50,849 bases of DNA from Candidatus Minthosoma caballi (GTDB lineage Bacteria > Bacteroidota > Bacteroidia > Bacteroidales > Bacteroidaceae), in assembly GCA_018064505.1 (NCBI GenBank), contig JAGHVC010000017.1, positions 1 to 50,849 of the forward strand, given 5' to 3'. Under the pieces are notes generated by a model, which made no database searches, was not told the origin of the DNA, and was given only the letters and a program-made list of their open reading frames with translations. Each line of letters opens with the position of its first letter. Position 1 is the first letter of the stretch. Made by a program: the position numbers and the translations under genes. This document shows, piece by piece, positions 28,654-43,424 of the stretch.

Positions 28654-30258
28654 ATGGCACAAAACGGACATCCAAAAGGACTCTATCTCTTGTTTGTAAC
28701 AGAGATGGCAGAGCGCTTCTCTTATTATGGAATGCGCGCACTCTTTACGCTGTACCTTGTTGCAGCATTCTTCAACAGCGCTGATGCGAGCCAAATCTAC
28801 GGCTCATACACAGGCCTTGTTTACCTCACTCCACTCCTCGGCGGCTACATTGCAGACCGCTACTGGGGCAATCGCCGTTCCATCATCGTGGGCGGTATCG
28901 TCATGGCTATCGGCCAATTCCTCATGTTTTCATCGGCTTGCTTCGTGCAGCAATCCATCATGACTGAGGGCGGAGCTATTGATGCGTCGGTTGACAACAA
29001 CTTCTCGCTCATCCTCATGTTCTGCGGTCTTGCAGCCCTCATCATCGGTAATGGCTTCTTCAAGCCAAACATCTCAACAATGGTGGGCGACCTCTACGAT
29101 CCACAAGACAAGCGCAAGGACTCTGCATTCACAATCTTCTACATGGGCATCAATGTAGGTGCTTTCATTGCTCCTCTCATTTGTGGTCCTCTCGGCAATG
29201 GTAACTGGGCAAACCCATCAGCCTTCAAGTGGGGCTTCTTCTGCGCTGGCTGCGCAATGATTCTCTCTGTAGTAGTGTTCTGGGCTCTTAAGAATAAGTA
29301 CCTCAAGACTCCAGAAGGACTCCAGATTGGTCTTGCTCCAAGCAAGTCAGAGCTTCGTCATCAGAAGGATGCAGCAGCAGAATCAGCTGCTCAGGCAGAG
29401 AAGAAAGCAGAAGTGAAGAACTCGCCTCTCCGCCTCTGGGGATGCGTGCTTGCAGCAGTTGCAATGATGATTGCTTTCTCATGGACAGCTCAGAACTTCA
29501 ACGACTACATCTCGGCTGCAATCTACTCAATATCAATTGCTCTCCCTATCTTTATCATCACAGACAAAGGCCTCACAGGTACAGAAAAGTCACGCATTGG
29601 CGTAATCTACATCATCGCAGTATTCGTCATCTTCTTCTGGAGTGCATTTGAGCAAGCAGGCTCATCGCTCACAATATTTGCTGACCAGCAGTGCGACCGA
29701 CACATTGGTGATTGGGAAATGCCAACAACATGGTTCCAGTCAATCAACCCAATCGTTGTCGTTTGCTTCGCACCTGTAATGGCAATGCTCTGGGAGTTCC
29801 TCCTCAAGCGCGGTATCAATGTTCCATCGCCAATTAAGCAGGCAATCGGTCTTCTCCTCCTCGCAATCGGCTATGTAGTGATTGCAATTGGCACAAACGG
29901 TCTTGAAGGCAATGCTAAGGCTTCTATGTGGTGGCTCTTCATCCTCTACTTCATCCACACTCTCGGTGAGCTCTCGCTTTCTCCAATTGGCCTTTCTATG
30001 GTGAACAAGCTCTCTCCTGCACGCCTCGCTTCACTCCTCATGGGCGTTTGGTTCATGTCGAATGCTGCATCAAACATCCTAGCAGGCAACCTTGCTACTC
30101 TCCTCCCAACAGGCGGCGAGCCAAAGTCTTTCTGCGGATTTGAAATTGCCACACTCACCGACTTCTTCACACTCTTTGCCGTAATGGCAGGCGTAGCAGC
30201 AGTTATCCTTTTCTGCCTCTACCCTGTGCTCAAGAAGATGATGAAGGGAGTGGAATAA
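28654..30258 (+). CDS. POT-family proton-coupled oligopeptide transporter, first copy
   Basis: A 534-residue inner-membrane symporter of the major facilitator superfamily importing di- and tripeptides with protons. The proton-coupling motif is MAERFSYYG near residues 17-25, and the GGYIADRYWGNRRSI loop and FFKPNISTMVGDLY signature of the family are intact. A charged Ala/Glu/Lys-rich loop of about 30 residues (near 228-256) between the helical bundles distinguishes it from the next gene and explains part of the length difference. It follows the S9 peptidase and precedes a close paralogue by 17 bases. Confidence 0.93.
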   Translation: MAQNGHPKGLYLLFVTEMAERFSYYGMRALFTLYLVAAFFNSADASQIYGSYTGLVYLTPLLGGYIADRYWGNRRSIIVGGIVMAIGQFLMFSSACFVQQSIMTEGGAIDASVDNNFSLILMFCGLAALIIGNGFFKPNISTMVGDLYDPQDKRKDSAFTIFYMGINVGAFIAPLICGPLGNGNWANPSAFKWGFFCAGCAMILSVVVFWALKNKYLKTPEGLQIGLAPSKSELRHQKDAAAESAAQAEKKAEVKNSPLRLWGCVLAAVAMMIAFSWTAQNFNDYISAAIYSISIALPIFIITDKGLTGTEKSRIGVIYIIAVFVIFFWSAFEQAGSSLTIFADQQCDRHIGDWEMPTTWFQSINPIVVVCFAPVMAMLWEFLLKRGINVPSPIKQAIGLLLLAIGYVVIAIGTNGLEGNAKASMWWLFILYFIHTLGELSLSPIGLSMVNKLSPARLASLLMGVWFMSNAASNILAGNLATLLPTGGEPKSFCGFEIATLTDFFTLFAVMAGVAAVILFCLYPVLKKMMKGVE

Positions 30259-30275
30259 CATACTTATCTTAATCA

Positions 30276-31706
30276 ATGAAACAATCTCATCCAAAGGGAT
30301 TATACCTTCTCTTTGCGACAGAAATGGCAGAGCGTTTCTCATACTACGGTATGAGAGCGCTCTTTACGCTTTACATGGTCTCGGCACTCTTTACCACTGA
30401 AGATGCCTTTGAGATTTATGGCACATACACAGGGCTCGTCTATCTCACCCCATTGATTGGCGGATACATAGCCGATCGCTATTGGGGAAATCGCCGCTCC
30501 ATCATTGCAGGCGGACTGGTCATGGCACTTGGGCAATTCCTGATGTTTCTTTCAGCATGTTTTGTACAAAACAGCATAGCGTCAGAAGGAGCAGCCATCG
30601 ATGCCACAATAAACAATCACCTATCTGTCATGCTGATGTTCACAGCATTAGGATGCATAATACTTGGCAATGGTTTCTTCAAGCCAAACATTTCCACAAT
30701 GGTTGGCGACCTCTACGCTCCAACAGACAAACGCAAGGATTCTGCATTCACAATCTTCTACATGGGCATCAACATAGGAGCTTTCATTGCTCCGCTTGTA
30801 TGCGGATTGTTTGAAGGAGACTTCTCCAATCCTTCTCGTTTCCGCTGGGGATTTCTTATCGCATGCATTGCAATGGTCATCTCCGTCATTTTGTTTGTTC
30901 TTCTCAAAAACAAATACCTTGTCACATCAGACGGCGAACCAATAGGCCTTGCTCAATCAGACAAGCCAAAATTTCAGCAAGAACAAAGCAAGCCACTCAC
31001 GCGTCAGGAGAAATACAACATCTGCGTAATATTCATTGTGGCACTGTTCGTCATATTTTTCTGGGCATCATACGAACAAGCAGGCGTGTCACTCACCTAC
31101 TTCGTCAATCAGCAAACCGACCGCAACATTCTCGGATGGGAAGTGCCAACATCGTGGTTCCAGTGTCTTCCTGCCATATTCTGCGTAGCATTAGCACCTG
31201 TGATGGCTGGTCTATGGGAGTTTCTTGGCCGACGAAAGCTCAAGAACGGCAAAACACTTGAGCCTACCTCAATTCAGAAACAAGCCTTAGGACTTGCTTT
31301 CCTCGCCATCGGCTATCTGGTCATTGCAATCGGAGTGGACGACATCGCCCCAGGCACTAAAGTCAGCATGATGTGGATTACAAGCCTATACTTCATTCAC
31401 GAACTTGGCGAGCTCTCGCTTTCTCCTATCGGCCTATCTATGGTTAACCGATTGAGCCCTAAGCGTTTCGCATCGCTCATCATGGGAGTATGGTTTATGA
31501 GCACTGCCATAAGCAACTTCCTTGCAGGCCACCTTGCCACACTCTATCCGGACGGTGCATCAGAAGTCAAGAGCATTCTTGGCTTCCAAATCAGCACAAT
31601 CCACGACTTCTTCCTCGTTTTTGTTGTAATGTCAGGCATTGCATCAATACTTCTTTTTGCCATTTGCCCAATCATGAAGAAAATGCTTGGCAATCAAGAA
31701 GTTTAG
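30276..31706 (+). CDS. POT-family proton-coupled oligopeptide transporter, second copy
   Basis: The 476-residue protein is a tandem paralogue of the preceding transporter, with near-identical N-terminal motifs (MAERFSYYGMRALFTLYM, GGYIADRYWGNRRSI) but a much shorter central loop and many substitutions in the second half. Conserved acidic and tyrosine residues for proton and peptide binding are kept, so it should also import short peptides, perhaps with different specificity. The 17-base gap implies one transcript. A repeat-rich non-coding stretch follows. Confidence 0.93.
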   Translation: MKQSHPKGLYLLFATEMAERFSYYGMRALFTLYMVSALFTTEDAFEIYGTYTGLVYLTPLIGGYIADRYWGNRRSIIAGGLVMALGQFLMFLSACFVQNSIASEGAAIDATINNHLSVMLMFTALGCIILGNGFFKPNISTMVGDLYAPTDKRKDSAFTIFYMGINIGAFIAPLVCGLFEGDFSNPSRFRWGFLIACIAMVISVILFVLLKNKYLVTSDGEPIGLAQSDKPKFQQEQSKPLTRQEKYNICVIFIVALFVIFFWASYEQAGVSLTYFVNQQTDRNILGWEVPTSWFQCLPAIFCVALAPVMAGLWEFLGRRKLKNGKTLEPTSIQKQALGLAFLAIGYLVIAIGVDDIAPGTKVSMMWITSLYFIHELGELSLSPIGLSMVNRLSPKRFASLIMGVWFMSTAISNFLAGHLATLYPDGASEVKSILGFQISTIHDFFLVFVVMSGIASILLFAICPIMKKMLGNQEV

Positions 31707-38225: not shown

Positions 38226-38891
38226 TTACCAATCAATTTCTGACAAGCCATGTTGTTTCAGATAACCATTGCATACTGAGAAATGATGATTACCGAAGAA
38301 ACCACGATATGCAGAAAGTGGAGACGGATGGGCTGAACGGAGAATACAATGCTTGCTTGCATCAATCAGCTGTGCCTTGCTTTGGGCATAACTACCCCAA
38401 AGAATAAAGACCACATTCTGCTTTGTTTCACTAATGATCTTGATTACTGCATCTGTGAATTCCTCCCAACCCTTCTTCTGGTGAGAAGCTGCTTGGTGAG
38501 CTCTTACTGTCAAAGTCGCATTGAGAAGAAGTACTCCCTGATTCGCCCATCGTGTCAAATTTCCTGACGCAGGCACAGGTTTTCCCAAGTCAGTTTGGAT
38601 TTCCTTAAAGATATTATTAAGCGATGGAGGAAACGGAATGCCATCATTCACAGAAAAGCACAATCCATGAGCTTGTCCTGGCTCATGATATGGGTCCTGA
38701 CCTATAAGCACAACCTTGACATTTTCAAACGGACATTGATTGAACGCATTGAAAATAAGTGAACCAGGTGGATAGCAAGTAGTAGTCTGATACTCCTTCT
38801 TCACAAATTGAATCAAGTTTTCAAAGTATTCCTTGTCAAACTCTGGCTGCAGCAATGGTTGCCATGAAGGATGGATTTTAACTTGTGCCAT
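38226..38891 (-). CDS. ung: Uracil-DNA glycosylase (family 1)
   Basis: The 221-residue repair enzyme removes uracil from DNA. All family-1 motifs are present: the catalytic water-activating loop GQDPYHEPGQAHGL, a LLNATLTVRAHQAASH segment, the phosphate-contacting GWEEFTDAVI region, and the DNA-intercalation loop AHPSPLSAYRGFFG. The length is normal. It follows the PqqD-like gene by 64 bases and may share its transcript, though functionally it is a housekeeping gene. Confidence 0.96.
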   Translation of the reverse strand: MAQVKIHPSWQPLLQPEFDKEYFENLIQFVKKEYQTTTCYPPGSLIFNAFNQCPFENVKVVLIGQDPYHEPGQAHGLCFSVNDGIPFPPSLNNIFKEIQTDLGKPVPASGNLTRWANQGVLLLNATLTVRAHQAASHQKKGWEEFTDAVIKIISETKQNVVFILWGSYAQSKAQLIDASKHCILRSAHPSPLSAYRGFFGNHHFSVCNGYLKQHGLSEIDW

Positions 38892-38955: not shown

Positions 38956-39225
38956 TTAGTTCTCAATAAGTCCGGCGTCGATCCAAGACGCAACAAGGTT
39001 GACAACATCACTCTGTGCAGTTACTTCATCTACCTCATATTCATCAAGAAGCACTTTCACCATATCTGATTCATTGAACTCCTGACCTGCCAATTTATTC
39101 CAAATAGCTGCAGCTGATTCGTTCAATGTTATCACTTTCGAAAAATCGATATTCTCAATACCGTGACTAATAATAATGTTCTCTCCGCAAATGGTACGGA
39201 GCTCAAATCCTTTTCTTACTCTCAT
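38956..39225 (-). CDS. PqqD-like peptide-binding protein
   Basis: An 89-residue winged-helix protein matching the PqqD fold: an N-terminal beta region (RVRKGFELRTICGENIII), the central LNESAAAIWNKLAGQEFNESDMV helix pair, and a C-terminal helix ending VNLVASWIDAGLI. PqqD proteins act as chaperones that bind the leader of a peptide substrate (RiPP recognition element). Here no other PQQ gene is near, so PQQ synthesis is excluded. Its partners appear to be the S26-like peptidase and HprK-like gene upstream on the same strand. No short precursor gene is visible in the adjoining gaps (64 and 48 bases). Confidence 0.85.
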   Translation of the reverse strand: MRVRKGFELRTICGENIIISHGIENIDFSKVITLNESAAAIWNKLAGQEFNESDMVKVLLDEYEVDEVTAQSDVVNLVASWIDAGLIEN

Positions 39226-39273
39226 GTCTTATTATTAATGTATTAAAATGTAGTTGTAATTGTTTTTAATCTA

Positions 39274-39753
39274 TCATCTCTGAAAACGAGCCGGCAACTG
39301 GTGCAACCAGAGCAAGCGATATAAAGCAAGAAGCACTCGACGGCACCAAAACAGCTTTGGCCAAATGAAAGAATACACTTTCCATGTTTTTGACTTATCT
39401 GTGTAATACACCTTTCCAAGCCTTTTGATTGCTATTAACTTAGCTCTAACTTCTGCAACTGTAAAAGATTCAGTGCCAAAAACATTTCCATCTCCACGCA
39501 TAGTTATCTGTTCTCCATCTATTCTTTCAATACGATGGCAAACAAAATGTCCTTGAGTTACCTCTGCAAGAATAACATCACCAACTTTTATCGCATCTGC
39601 CTTTCCAAAAACCAGTTTGTCTCTACCATCCTCAATGAATGGACGCATACTGTTTCCACGCGCAATAATTGTAACGAAGTGTCCATCGTCTTCGTTCATA
39701 ATCTCCAGCATTGCAGGAAGAAACTCGCTGTTATCCAATTCTAACTTATTCAT
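39274..39753 (-). CDS. S24/S26-like Ser/His signal-peptidase-fold protein
   Basis: From the ATG at 39753 it has 159 residues; a TTG start would add three. The nucleophile motif is GNSMRPF with Ser35. The second catalytic position is His73 in VCHRIERI, giving the Ser/His pair of SipW/ER-type signal peptidases rather than Ser/Lys. KVGDVILAEV and ITMRGDGN complete the fold. There is no N-terminal membrane anchor or LexA-like DNA-binding domain; the C-terminal 35 residues are aromatic and basic (SFIWPKLFWCRRVLLALYRL) and may lie on the membrane. It probably cleaves a specific substrate within this operon, but that is inference. Confidence 0.82.
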   Translation of the reverse strand: MNKLELDNSEFLPAMLEIMNEDDGHFVTIIARGNSMRPFIEDGRDKLVFGKADAIKVGDVILAEVTQGHFVCHRIERIDGEQITMRGDGNVFGTESFTVAEVRAKLIAIKRLGKVYYTDKSKTWKVYSFIWPKLFWCRRVLLALYRLLWLHQLPARFQR

Positions 39754-39790
39754 CGACAACAATTAAAGTAGGGATTCAAACATTTTTGAG

Positions 39791-40687
39791 TCATTGATGA
39801 TTTGCACTCATAGTCGAGTAGCTCAATTGACATGCAGCTTCGTCTGGCAAACATTCAAGGAAATAAGTAGGTACTTTTTCCAAAATCTTGCCTACTGTAT
39901 CGCATGTGCCAACATAATCGCGCGCATCCCACTTCATTACTGAACAAGAAGGCAGTAACGAAGCAAAGCCATCAACTGTTGATTGGCGCTGAATTTTATT
40001 ATAAGGAGCCTGCTTTAGCTGTAAGAATGCACCTATTGGAGCTTCAACATCACGATAGCAAGGAGTCTTACCGCTCCAAGGGGAACCAAAAACTCTAGCT
40101 ACTCCATCTTCACATACTCTAACTACAGGGTTATCATCATTCATCAAATCCGTATCACTTATATACTTGAGCCACAATCCTGTATGAGTGCTCTTCCCTG
40201 TGCCGCTAACACCTAAACAGAGGTAGCCATAACCGTCTTTTCTCACAACGGAAGCATGCATTAAAACTGTCTGCTTATCTGACCCGGCAAAAGCATACAT
40301 CATCATCAACGCATTATTCAAGCCAAATGTGCGCATATTGTAATTTCCATTCAAACAGACTTTAGCTGATGAAAAATCTGGAACGGCTTGAATTAGGCAG
40401 CATTGATTCTGACAAACATCGCTTACAAGAATCTGATATGATCCGTCTTCCAACACATATACTCCATGATTGTTTCCGCCACAATCAAACTGGCCAATCT
40501 CTTTTCCTTTTTTTGATGGACGCCAGTTGTCATCAACCATCAATGTGAAAAGAATAGACACACCATCATCAGGGGCGTCTTTCATCTTGAAAGGCTCACT
40601 TGACGGCAGCAGTTTATCAGTGTTTTTATCGTCACAAAACTCGACACAATAAATGTGGCGACCTACTTTATAGTAACTTTTACTCAT
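39791..40687 (-). CDS. HPr-kinase-like P-loop protein
   Basis: The 298-residue protein has a variable N-terminal region (about 1-130) and a C-terminal kinase-like core. The P-loop is GVSGTGKST at 159-167, preceded by LMHASVV (His144) and followed by the acidic pair in LMNDDNPVV (Asp184-185) and GSPWSGKT (201-208). These are hallmarks of HPr kinase/PEP-carboxykinase-fold proteins that accompany PqqD-like genes. There is no HPr serine target motif nearby and no true PtsK domain at the N-terminus, so phosphorylating a peptide substrate is more plausible than sugar control. The N-terminal part is rich in cysteine (Cys14, 18, 69, 92, 96, 97). It starts nine bases after the C11 gene. Confidence 0.78.
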   Translation of the reverse strand: MSKSYYKVGRHIYCVEFCDDKNTDKLLPSSEPFKMKDAPDDGVSILFTLMVDDNWRPSKKGKEIGQFDCGGNNHGVYVLEDGSYQILVSDVCQNQCCLIQAVPDFSSAKVCLNGNYNMRTFGLNNALMMMYAFAGSDKQTVLMHASVVRKDGYGYLCLGVSGTGKSTHTGLWLKYISDTDLMNDDNPVVRVCEDGVARVFGSPWSGKTPCYRDVEAPIGAFLQLKQAPYNKIQRQSTVDGFASLLPSCSVMKWDARDYVGTCDTVGKILEKVPTYFLECLPDEAACQLSYSTMSANHQ

Positions 40688-40696
40688 TCTTTATTA

Positions 40697-41983
40697 TTAT
40701 TCTATTGACCAAAGTTCTCTACCCCAATCAGTATTCATTATCGCTTCGTAGACATCTAAACTCATTCCTAAATACCAATACCTGTGAGGAATTGGAAGGA
40801 ACATAGACACTCCGCCGCATTGTTCTGCATCGACAGACAATCGCATGTTTGGATATCTTGAATACCAATATTGAGTAAACTTACAATTATCTATAATCTT
40901 TGAATATTCGTAATTCCATTCCGCATATTCTGTTTCAGAGAGTGCAGAGGCTGCAATTCCTTTTATATCTAAGAAATCAGGCATCTTCTGCGACGAGTAT
41001 ATGCTATAATCAAAATAGTTTTGGATATTTTTCAATGTTGCAGGCAAGAAACTATCAGGATGCTTTCTTACGACATTCTTCATGTATGCAAGGAAATTGT
41101 CTAATTTAGCAACCTCAACGGAAGAAATGATAACGCCATAATCAGCGTCATTCACATAAGTTTTATAATAAGCATCAACTATTGCATAAGCTGAGCTATC
41201 TGCTTTAAACAAAGCTGACATCGTCGATCGGTAGTCAGCACCAGGTCCAGGAATCTCGGCTGGAGAAGCAACAACATACTTTGTTGCATTTCTTAGTTCA
41301 TAATCAAGCTCTATACATTGCATAAAGCATGCATCAAAGAATATATACTCAAACTTGATTCTGGACTCAATGCATCTTGCCATGTCGGATATATTCATCT
41401 GATTACCACTATTATATGTGGTATTATTATTGTTGTCTAGTCCAAAAGCTCGATGCTTTGATTTGATTGCAATATTGTTATTGTCAGGAATCCAACCAGA
41501 GCCATGTGACCAAAGCACTAATCCATAAGATTCTGCAGGATGCTTTCTCTTAACATAGTCAATAACCTCTCCAAGATGATTAGCGTCTGCAGAATTCTTA
41601 TCTTCAGAATAAGTATATTCTGGCTTCAAGGTGAAAGCATTTAAAATTGTATCTTTTGGAGTAATATTATAGATTCGTGGCTTATCCGTATCATCAACAT
41701 ATACAACAAGATTGTCTCCTGGCTTCAAGTGTGAATACCTCATGCCATAAAGCATCTCGTTTATATCCGAAGCAGTATATGAAGCTAACGAATTCTCGGC
41801 AACCATATACACGAGTACTGTGCGACTATCCGCCATTGATTCGTCATAATAAGGAGGATTTGGAGCATCATTTTCCTCATCTTTGCTGCATGAGAAAAAC
41901 GAAGTGGTTGCAACAATACATACAAGCATTGCTACAACCATATTCATGAATTTTGATACTACACTTCTTAATGAGTTTTTCAT
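40697..41983 (-). CDS. Clostripain-family (C11) cysteine peptidase lipoprotein
   Basis: The 428-residue protein has a lipoprotein signal (SFFSC, Cys32), so it is anchored in an envelope membrane. The caspase-like C11 core shows the catalytic His160 in LWSHGSGW and Cys219 in FFDACFMQC. C11 enzymes usually cut after Arg or Lys and are often self-processed. This one could mature or degrade a surface or exported peptide. Its place between the small secreted protein (12-base gap) and the HprK-like gene (9-base gap) ties it to the PqqD-type module. Confidence 0.88.
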   Translation of the reverse strand: MKNSLRSVVSKFMNMVVAMLVCIVATTSFFSCSKDEENDAPNPPYYDESMADSRTVLVYMVAENSLASYTASDINEMLYGMRYSHLKPGDNLVVYVDDTDKPRIYNITPKDTILNAFTLKPEYTYSEDKNSADANHLGEVIDYVKRKHPAESYGLVLWSHGSGWIPDNNNIAIKSKHRAFGLDNNNNTTYNSGNQMNISDMARCIESRIKFEYIFFDACFMQCIELDYELRNATKYVVASPAEIPGPGADYRSTMSALFKADSSAYAIVDAYYKTYVNDADYGVIISSVEVAKLDNFLAYMKNVVRKHPDSFLPATLKNIQNYFDYSIYSSQKMPDFLDIKGIAASALSETEYAEWNYEYSKIIDNCKFTQYWYSRYPNMRLSVDAEQCGGVSMFLPIPHRYWYLGMSLDVYEAIMNTDWGRELWSIE

Positions 41984-41995
41984 CCTGCAACTCGC

Positions 41996-42442
41996 TTATT
42001 CTTCTGTATTTCCGACAAAGTTCAATGGGTGCTTAAACCTAAACTTGTTATCGTCAATAATAACAATCTTTGTATCAGGATTATCCAAAAAGCGCTTTTT
42101 AATCTTATAGAATTTCTTAGCTACTTTCTTGCGATTATCGCTAAAGAACACAGCTACTGTCTGCCCCTTCAAATTCAGCTTACCTTCGAGATACTGCTTC
42201 ATCTGCAAACTGAATTCTGAACGATAAGGCAAGAACTTTGTTTTCTTATCCAAATCAATGCTGTCTATCTGACTGATACTGCTTATATAAACAACAGAAT
42301 CTGTAAGCTGTTGACTTACTCCAAACAAATACACTGTACCTTTACCCATTCCATATTCTTGCTCTTCTTTCTTATTCTTAGAAGCCGCAAATGATGAAAT
42401 AGCAACTGAGAGAAACAATATAACTAATAAATACTTATTCAT
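41996..42442 (-). CDS. Small secreted protein of unknown function
   Basis: A 148-residue protein not recognised. It has a signal peptide (YLLVILFLSVAISSFAAS), then a basic, lysine-rich mature part with a beta/alpha look: GKGTVYLFGVSQQLTDSVVYI, QMKQYLEGKLNLKGQTVAVFF and a KIVIIDDNKF strand near the end. No cysteines remain in the mature part, so no disulfide or lanthionine chemistry is expected. It is the first gene of the run that includes the C11, HprK-like, S26-like and PqqD-like genes. The many Lys and Arg residues would suit cleavage by the adjacent C11 peptidase, which is only a guess. Confidence 0.7.
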   Translation of the reverse strand: MNKYLLVILFLSVAISSFAASKNKKEEQEYGMGKGTVYLFGVSQQLTDSVVYISSISQIDSIDLDKKTKFLPYRSEFSLQMKQYLEGKLNLKGQTVAVFFSDNRKKVAKKFYKIKKRFLDNPDTKIVIIDDNKFRFKHPLNFVGNTEE

Positions 42443-42554: not shown

Positions 42555-43424
42555 TTACCCGAGGTATGTCTTTAACAATTTACTCTTTGAGCTTGTACGA
42601 AGTCGGCGAATTGCTTTCTCCTTAATCTGTCTAACACGCTCACGAGTAAGGTTAAATCTGTCTCCTATCTCTTCAAGAGTCTTTTCCTGCATTCCAATAC
42701 CAAAGAACATCTTAATGATGTCTTTCTCACGCTCGCTGAGAGTATCGAGAGCACGATCAATTTCTTTTGATAAAGACTCATTGACAAGAGTCTTATCAGC
42801 AGAAGGAGAATCGGGATTTGAAAGGATATCAAGCAAGCTATTGTCCTCACCTTCAACGAAAGGTGCATCAACACTAATGTGTCGTCCGCTTACCTTCATA
42901 GTATCAGCGACCTTGTCAACAGGCAAATCCAGTTGATCAGCAAGTTCCTCAGGAGATGGACGACGCTCGTTTTCCTGTTCAAATTTAGAGAACGCTTTTC
43001 CTATTTTATTGAGTGAGCCAACCTGATTGAGTGGGAGACGAACTATACGGCTTTGTTCTGCAAGAGCTTGAAGGATGCTTTGGCGAATCCACCATACAGC
43101 GTAACTGATAAACTTGAAACCGCGCGTTTCATCAAACTTCTCTGCTGCCTTTATCAAACCGAGGTTGCCTTCGTTAATAAGGTCTGGAAGGCTAAGACCT
43201 TGATTTTGATACTGCTTAGCAACAGAAACGACAAAACGGAGGTTTGCTCTTGTCAGTTTTTCAAGTGCCAATCTTCCTTCTTTTCCACCTTTGCGAATCT
43301 TTGCTGCAAGTTCTACTTCTTCCTCAACAGTGATTAGTTCTTCACGACCGATTTCTTGGAGATACTTGTCGAGTGAAGCACTCTCACGGTTCGTGATACT
43401 TTTGGTAATCTTTAATTGTCTCAT
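42555..43424 (-). CDS. rpoD: Primary sigma factor, RpoD/SigA type
   Basis: A 289-residue sigma-70-family factor lacking the long N-terminal region 1.1, the usual Bacteroidota housekeeping form. Region 1.2 begins at [12 protein letters not shown], region 2 includes [24 protein letters not shown] and [11 protein letters not shown] (the -10 recognition and melting segment), region 3 lies around 150-210, and region 4 ends with the [19 protein letters not shown] helix-turn-helix. It should recognise the TTG / TAnnTTTG promoters seen through this window. It has its own good promoter and a strong terminator. Confidence 0.95.

Follow-up and report, generated by a model that had tools for sequence, protein, structure and literature searches.

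A putative peptide-maturation module resembling the linear polyphosphorylated peptide system in Candidatus Minthosoma caballi, with candidate precursors scattered elsewhere in the genome

Introduction

The closest described relatives of the genes considered here belong to the system for linear polyphosphorylated peptides (LPP), reported from Bacillota (Popov et al. 2026, PMC13381572). According to that paper, the system comprises LppB (an RRE protein), LppK (an HprK-like kinase), LppS (an archaeal-type signal peptidase I with S29, H68, and D93), LppN, and LppD, and its precursors carry the motif YxxPxVLxHQxIxFETxxS. LppK adds several phosphates to Ser3 of the core, and LppS, a Ser/His/Asp peptidase helped by LppB, cleaves after Thr-1. 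LPP are called restricted to Bacillota by the authors, and the stem "bacteroid" is absent from the paper's main text. Here, we describe a similar set of genes for an HprK-like, an S26-like, and a PqqD-like protein (together referred to as the trio) in a stretch of 50,849 nucleotides from Candidatus Minthosoma caballi (Bacteroidales), i.e., positions 1 to 50,849 of contig JAGHVC010000017.1 in assembly GCA_018064505.1 (referred to as the window). Besides PMC13381572, searches of the open-licence PMC literature listed no description of the trio gene set.

An earlier note, made from the letters of this DNA, had grouped the trio with a C11 protease gene and a small secreted gene into one operon with no visible precursor, and had proposed a kinase- and protease-based module acting on an unlinked or unconventional substrate. 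The analysis reported here indicates that the trio is likely a peptide-maturation module of the LPP kind that acts in trans on scattered short peptides, many of which are encoded directly behind genes for surface proteins.

Results

The trio is a real conserved module that reaches well beyond the genus. Using profiles built in this analysis, 161 HprK loci were scored, consisting of 80 regions, the 80 best named matches that were kept, and the window itself; the named loci, having been ranked by their match to an alignment headed by the window protein, lean towards its relatives, and some neighbours in this count were hidden by contig ends. All three trio genes were found on the same strand within 6 kb in 134 of these loci (the window among them), and the PqqD-like gene was found on the HprK strand within 6 kb in 146. 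HprK homologues were present in 78 of the 101 genomes of the family sample and, at E ≤ 1e-10 with the profile, in 48 of the 295 genomes sampled from the order, a few of these 48 being short matches to the P-loop region. Moreover, a single open reading frame (ORF) at L112 (8163–9371, minus strand) fuses an HprK-like domain to an S26-like peptidase domain, a sign that both proteins work together. The 23 HprK-negative family genomes were additionally searched with the A2 profile, which matched in 12 of them: 11 matches lay in frames of 537–571 aa, covered the P-loop part only, and were read as PEP carboxykinase, and the twelfth (G032) was a weak match of 279 aa. All 23 genomes were retained as HprK-negative.

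The other two genes of the five-gene set behaved differently from the trio in the conservation check that the earlier note had asked for, with the small secreted gene kept beside the trio in one clade and the C11 gene rarely; the refuting condition named in that note thus holds by half. More specifically, of the 161 loci, 88 had the small gene alongside HprK, 59 had rpoD on the HprK strand no more than 6 kb away, and 12 had C11; an ABC exporter occurred in 49 and NTP_transf_5 in 22. Two partners that the earlier note had expected and found absent, an exporter and a nucleotidyltransferase, are indeed lacking near the window trio, but do occur in its wider family. Among the 88 small-gene loci, an ABC exporter was found in one (L208) and a nucleotidyltransferase in none. 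In a quick, midpoint-rooted HprK tree, one clade of 94 of the 159 rows (support 99) held all 88 small-gene loci, its remaining rows being five unlabelled ones and one ABC row. Because these 88 loci share a single clade, this tree may reflect a single joining event between the trio and the rpoD-small(-C11) block. In the window's clade, the rpoD-type sigma factor anchors the locus; outside the rpoD-linked clade, an ABC exporter accompanies the trio in many loci and a nucleotidyltransferase in some.

In the family sample, the small gene was detected in 98 of the 101 genomes and in 73 of the 73 of good quality, with or without HprK, and the C11 family in 93 of the 101, including genomes without HprK. 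Furthermore, 20 HprK-negative genomes carry the small gene, and in 12 of them it stands next to C11 (read by hand). The small secreted gene is therefore an rpoD-linked core gene of the family, and the C11 lipoprotein is a passenger or lineage-specific partner of the locus rather than a standing member of the trio; both are independent neighbours of rpoD, and the module does not require them. As such, their inclusion as module members in the earlier note is not supported. It also appears quite unlikely that the trio serves to mature the neighbouring 148-aa secreted protein or forms one envelope module with the C11 protease. The frequent presence of the small gene near HprK, with all of these loci inside the one 94-row clade, would fit such a role, but the family of the small protein occurs whether or not HprK is there, C11 is found in 12 of the 161 loci only, the ABC-type trios carry neither the small gene nor C11 (save L208, which has the small gene and ABC), and the window's 148-aa protein starts with a signal-like hydrophobic stretch in which there is no YxxP. 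The 148-aa protein is near-universal in the family, adjoins rpoD in many loci, and matches no Pfam family.

Candidate substrates of the trio came from the ABC-bearing cassettes, in the gaps of which short ORFs with a common leader were found. Their pattern reads MKKxYxxP, followed further on by a hydrophobic pair, Ala/Cys, any residue, and Ser. A profile of 11 such peptides, with no rows from the window's genome and four from other sampled genomes, found 11 copies in the window's genome and matches in 68 of the 101 family genomes (E ≤ 0.05). A refined 49-row profile, which does contain rows from the window's genome, yielded 13 matches in that genome, 20 in G010, and 51 in G092, and reached 77 of the 101 family genomes at E ≤ 0.01. 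All 13 matches in the window's genome lie on contigs other than that of the window, and profile search across the 50.8-kb window found no precursor-like ORF, so that the absence of a visible precursor is correct for the window. The idea of a module with an unlinked substrate is supported by gene content and co-occurrence, with C11 (12 of the 161 loci) dropping out of the proposed module. Eight of the 13 peptide matches are located less than 800 bp from a contig end (on contigs C113, C126, C101, C61, C82, C137, and C3 of this genome, G000); their surroundings may hence consist of repeats, and 13 may be an undercount. A loose DNA pattern (K-x-Y-x-x-P) run on ten genomes gave about as many matches as its reversed control and was dropped.

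The peptides form a dispersed family that co-occurs with the kinase. In the family sample, they were present in 73 of the 78 HprK-positive vs. four of the 23 HprK-negative genomes (Fisher p = 1.8e-12), and in the rest of the order sample (291 genomes) in 19 of the 46 HprK-positive vs. four of the 245 HprK-negative genomes (p = 8e-14), with shared descent left uncorrected in both comparisons. The peptides are also under purifying selection, with a median dN/dS of 0.17 (from the 21 of 25 pairs that were usable; some sequences recur among pairs). None of six scanned peptides matched an NCBIfam family, and seven scanned against Pfam gave nothing better than E = 0.049.

The anatomy of the peptides was read from 112 unique sequences, all selected for a YxxP near the start. 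A Ser was situated at Tyr+18 to +21 in 105 of them (75 at +19 and 25 at +20), leaving seven without. Relative to this Ser, position −4 was hydrophobic in 95 of the 105 peptides and position −3 in 103, and position −2 was Ala, Cys, Gly, Ser, or Thr in 82. The core, counted from the residue before the Ser onward, had a mean net charge of −4.5 across the 105 peptides; a basic pair preceded an aromatic residue in 40 of the 105 cores, a count that relates to a dropped idea of C11 cutting exported cores at basic sites, and a Trp, Phe, or Tyr was found within the last six residues in 66 of the 68 cores of an earlier set.

The catalytic residues of the putative enzymes proved conserved. In a 53-row alignment of the HprK-like protein, SGTGKST, NDD, and most of GSPWSGKT were invariant and S202 was kept in at least 90% of rows; the P-loop and GSPWSGKT described in the earlier note are both present in the window protein. 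Compared with the PDB, the family profile reached PEP carboxykinase (4e-5) and HPr kinase (1ko7, 0.0013), both weak matches, and P-loop-only ABC matches scored equal or better in the same search. For the S26-like enzyme, Ser38, His76, and Asp91 (numbered from the TTG start) were invariant in all 61 homologues. From its hydropathy profile, this enzyme looks cytosolic, with 19-residue hydropathy below 1.6 in 57 of the 61 homologues and, for the window protein, a maximum of 1.18 and no predicted membrane helix.

These data bear on whether the HprK-like protein is a kinase at all, as the trio might instead remove the leader from, or perform quality control on, the scattered peptides without phosphorylation, the HprK-like protein then being an ATPase or binding partner. 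Kinase identity indeed rests on motifs and weak profile matches, and the unphosphorylated LPP precursor was cleaved in vitro. Nevertheless, this alternative is unlikely, given that little or no variation is seen in the P-loop, NDD, and HxS, that an acceptor-like Ser is kept near the LPP spacing, and that LPP cells without the kinase processed the precursor poorly (both LPP results from PMC13381572).

The same conservation argues that the trio is very unlikely to be the residue of a degenerate lasso-peptide or LPP cluster that has lost its exporter and precursor. Although almost no locus of the rpoD-linked clade carries the ABC exporter or nucleotidyltransferase, the active-site residues remain invariant or nearly so and the peptides experience purifying selection. 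Moreover, genomes without ABC at the locus hold more peptides rather than fewer (a median of 5.5 per genome in 26 genomes vs. 2 in the 19 of the ABC type, p = 0.0097, with the labels of the 45 genomes assigned by hand).

The genomic neighbourhood of the peptides was examined in 60 regions picked by hand from 439 family matches and the order sample, mostly around well-scoring matches, and comprising 70 peptides in 28 genomes. For 45 peptides, a gene on the same strand ended at most 150 bp upstream, and 38 of the 41 untruncated neighbours of this kind had a signal peptide (called by a home-made heuristic) vs. 55 of the 169 other genes. Furthermore, 40 of the 70 peptide genes followed, at a distance of 0–93 bp (median 30.5), a gene that terminates with a short sorting domain resembling those of the type IX secretion system (T9SS); two upstream genes of more than 200 aa without this domain (at L317, and at L382 upstream of peptide 4027) were left out of these 40 gaps. 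The C-terminal domain common to the upstream cargo (TGI...YxLxGRRVxxxxKGIYIVNGKKVxxK) was seen in 19 genomes and eight genera, and its last 40 residues carry a mean charge of +2.2. Ahead of this domain, the cargo proteins differ, with BspA-type repeats, a C10 protease, and lectin-like domains among those scanned.

A sorting-domain profile trained on part of the cargo recovered 23 of 25 untrained upstream neighbours vs. six of 219 other genes (p = 1e-24, relatedness not corrected). Five of 35 sorting-domain members reached TIGR04183 at E ≤ 1 (best 0.0037), and there was no meaningful Pfam match. In the complete genome G082, where 40 regions with 41 sorting-domain ORFs were checked, taken from the top-scoring end of 67 matches, a peptide gene stood behind 11 of the 21 ORFs with the extended domain vs. 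none of the 20 with a shorter match; the extended class was defined by a profile from peptide-linked cargo, with three of its 35 rows from G082. By eye, the cargo ends agree with short T9SS sorting domains described for Prevotella intermedia cargo (PMC11969387), both in the PT/GI cleavage site and in motifs B, D, and E; no companion peptide gene is mentioned in the passages on these domains. P. intermedia has been called the sole species of its phylum reported to have both short and long T9SS forms (2025 paper; long forms were not sought here). At E ≤ 0.001, short T9SS-like sorting domains gave 62 matches in G000, 90 in G010, 67 in G082, and 79 in G210, an abundance which indicates that short forms may be common.

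Several observations count against a general link with such cargo. For 30 of the 70 peptides, no cargo of this type was found just upstream (the upstream gene being undefined at the edge for six), and among the 23 peptides with a near downstream gene, that gene encoded a signal-peptide protein or lipoprotein in 14. Six genomes checked for the sorting domain contained none, two of which have peptides (G013 and G027). A second setting was seen in G092 and G068, where peptides directly precede lipoprotein genes; the scanned downstream lipoprotein of G068 was FISUMP-like, below the curated cut-off. In G092, the five peptides fetched out of 51 matches (L318–L322) all precede a related lipoprotein-like protein of 517–553 aa, and an HU-HIG protein was noted near L319, the G092 region that was scanned. 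The group resembles a surface-protein family that has undergone expansion.

A role of the cores together with this cargo is worth testing in view of where many of the peptide genes lie, the acidity of the cores, and the basic charge of the sorting domains. As a tentative possibility, peptides behind the extended short-domain T9SS cargo might form a cargo-companion system of Prevotellaceae, in which the acidic, phosphorylated, and leader-cleaved peptide would help its own cargo to be secreted, to be anchored, or to function at the surface, and the LPP-type enzymes beside rpoD would serve all such peptides in trans as a single set. The linkage could also be explained by joint duplication of both genes, with no functional role.

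The genes of the window locus are listed in Table 1. As the earlier note had read, the five minus-strand genes are tightly packed, with coordinates confirming gaps of 12, 9, 37 (counted with the ATG start of the S26-like gene), and 48 bases. No ABC exporter or NTP transferase was found near the window trio (the rest of the genome was not searched for either). The PqqD-fold protein passed the PF05402 gathering cut-off (58.2 vs. 23.4 bits), and its best solved relative by sequence is the lasso protein TfuB1 (E = 0.019). The S26-like protein matched the archaeal-type signal peptidase I model TIGR02228 at 3.2e-6 and 27.1 bits, below the cut-off of 51.85. Solved relatives of the C11 protein are 6n9j and 6mzo. 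Elsewhere in the window (28654–31706, plus strand), two similar transporter genes stand in tandem, which we take to be of the POT type by resemblance.

Table 1. Genes of the trio locus and its flanks in the window.
Feature	Position	Strand	Remarks
ung, other flank of the five-gene set	38226-38891		family scan
PqqD-fold (RRE) protein	38956..39225	-	89 aa; PF05402 E=1.1e-15
S26/S24-like serine peptidase	39274..39762	-	162 aa from TTG, 159 aa from ATG at 39753; PF00717 (Peptidase_S24) 7.4e-7
HprK-like kinase (candidate)	39791..40687	-	298 aa; P-loop GVSGTGKST and GSPWSGKT
C11 (clostripain family) lipoprotein peptidase	40697..41983	-	428 aa; PF03415 2.7e-48
Small secreted protein	41996..42442	-	148 aa; no Pfam family; NCBIfam matches at chance level only
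rpoD-type sigma factor, flank	42555..43424	-	Sigma70 regions 1.2-4

Discussion

As predicted from sequence, the module would bind, phosphorylate, cleave, and export its precursors in the following manner. The PqqD-like (LppB-like) protein would bind the YxxP leader of precursors encoded elsewhere in the genome, upon which the HprK-like (LppK-like) kinase would phosphorylate, perhaps repeatedly, the conserved Ser located mostly 19–20 residues past the Tyr. The S26-like (LppS-like) enzyme would then remove the leader just ahead of this Ser, with the cut most likely following the small residue, in most cases Ala or Cys, that precedes the Ser by two positions. The freed core would be acidic, ca. 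35 residues long, and have aromatic residues at its end.

A number of points weigh against this model. The window's locus, to which the search for an exporter was confined, shows none, and the window's genome assembly is fragmented, 88% complete, and has 4% contamination. Five of the 78 HprK-positive family genomes gave no peptide match, and neither did 27 of the 46 HprK-positive genomes in the rest of the order, some of the 46 being short P-loop-region matches only. Conversely, peptides but no kinase were detected in four genomes of the family and in four others, among the latter G390 with seven peptide matches. Three of the four others lie at E 0.002–0.006, where ca. 2.5 chance matches are expected per 245 genomes; the matches in G264, G337, and G388 are borderline, and the samples include HprK-positive congeners for the exceptions G044, G067, G079, G100, and G390. 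The peptide profiles were themselves seeded in HprK-positive genomes, and the first regex screen gave 25 matches vs. 18, 18, and 14 in its controls, with clean cases chosen by eye; these cases were backed later by profile search and co-occurrence. Finally, the likeness to LppK, LppS, and LppB was judged from published descriptions (PMC13381572) and not from LPP protein sequences.

If the model holds, a peptide-modification family called Bacillota-restricted extends to a major gut, rumen, and oral lineage, and a RiPP-type (ribosomally synthesized and post-translationally modified peptide) maturation route is tied to T9SS cargo. The link with cargo would offer a first hint of the purpose of the phosphopeptides, a role that the LPP authors call unknown (PMC13381572). 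It would likewise name a large family of short peptides, the scanned members of which match no family, as likely substrates, and it predicts which Tyr, Pro, and Ser matter and where the cut falls.

With regard to known systems, the SynChlorMet cassette pairs the HprK-like ScmC with the PqqD-like ScmD. The window's HprK-like protein differs from ScmC and from the HprK-related kinases A and B of NCBIfam, since these curated models were matched only far below their cut-offs (24.3 of 125 bits for ScmC at 1.7e-5, 19.7 of 200 for HprK_rel_A at 3.8e-4, and 12.5 of 200 for kinase B); the HPr-rel-A model (TIGR04352), of a family named in the earlier note, thus rejects the protein. Paeninodin-like lasso clusters, as described in PMC13381572 and PMC7533575, share an HprK-like kinase, a nucleotidyltransferase, a discrete PqqD-type B1 protein, an ABC exporter, and [Y/W]xxP leader recognition, but use a B2 protease where an S26-like peptidase is found here (neither the B2 cysteine protease, PF13471, nor the asparagine-synthetase-like cyclase C, PF00733, was specifically looked for).

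The closest resemblance is to LPP as described in PMC13381572. LPP clusters likewise co-locate a signal peptidase I/S26 enzyme, a discrete RRE (PqqD) protein, and an HprK-like kinase, and the wider family of the present module also carries the NTP transferase and MsbA-like ABC exporter. Both systems have a YxxP leader and a conserved Ser, which is located mostly at Tyr+19 or +20 here and at Tyr+18 by count for Ser3 of LPP, and both have a Ser/His/Asp set, with Ser38/His76/Asp91 equated with S29/H68/D93 of LppS by order and spacing. In contrast, the full LPP leader consensus does not recur here, as HQ and FET are not conserved and a hydrophobic pair with mostly Ala/Cys stands instead. LPP precursors are clustered (1–3 ORFs per cluster), whereas the present ones are scattered, with up to 51 matches per genome, and many follow T9SS-like cargo genes; moreover, the present host belongs to the Bacteroidales, and the exporter and nucleotidyltransferase are missing at the rpoD-linked locus. 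Because the exact leader consensus, precursor clustering, exporter and nucleotidyltransferase at the locus, and host phylum disagree, the present module is not a proven member of the LPP system; because the gene set, leader logic, Ser spacing, and catalytic residues agree, it would instead seem best described as an LPP-like variant.

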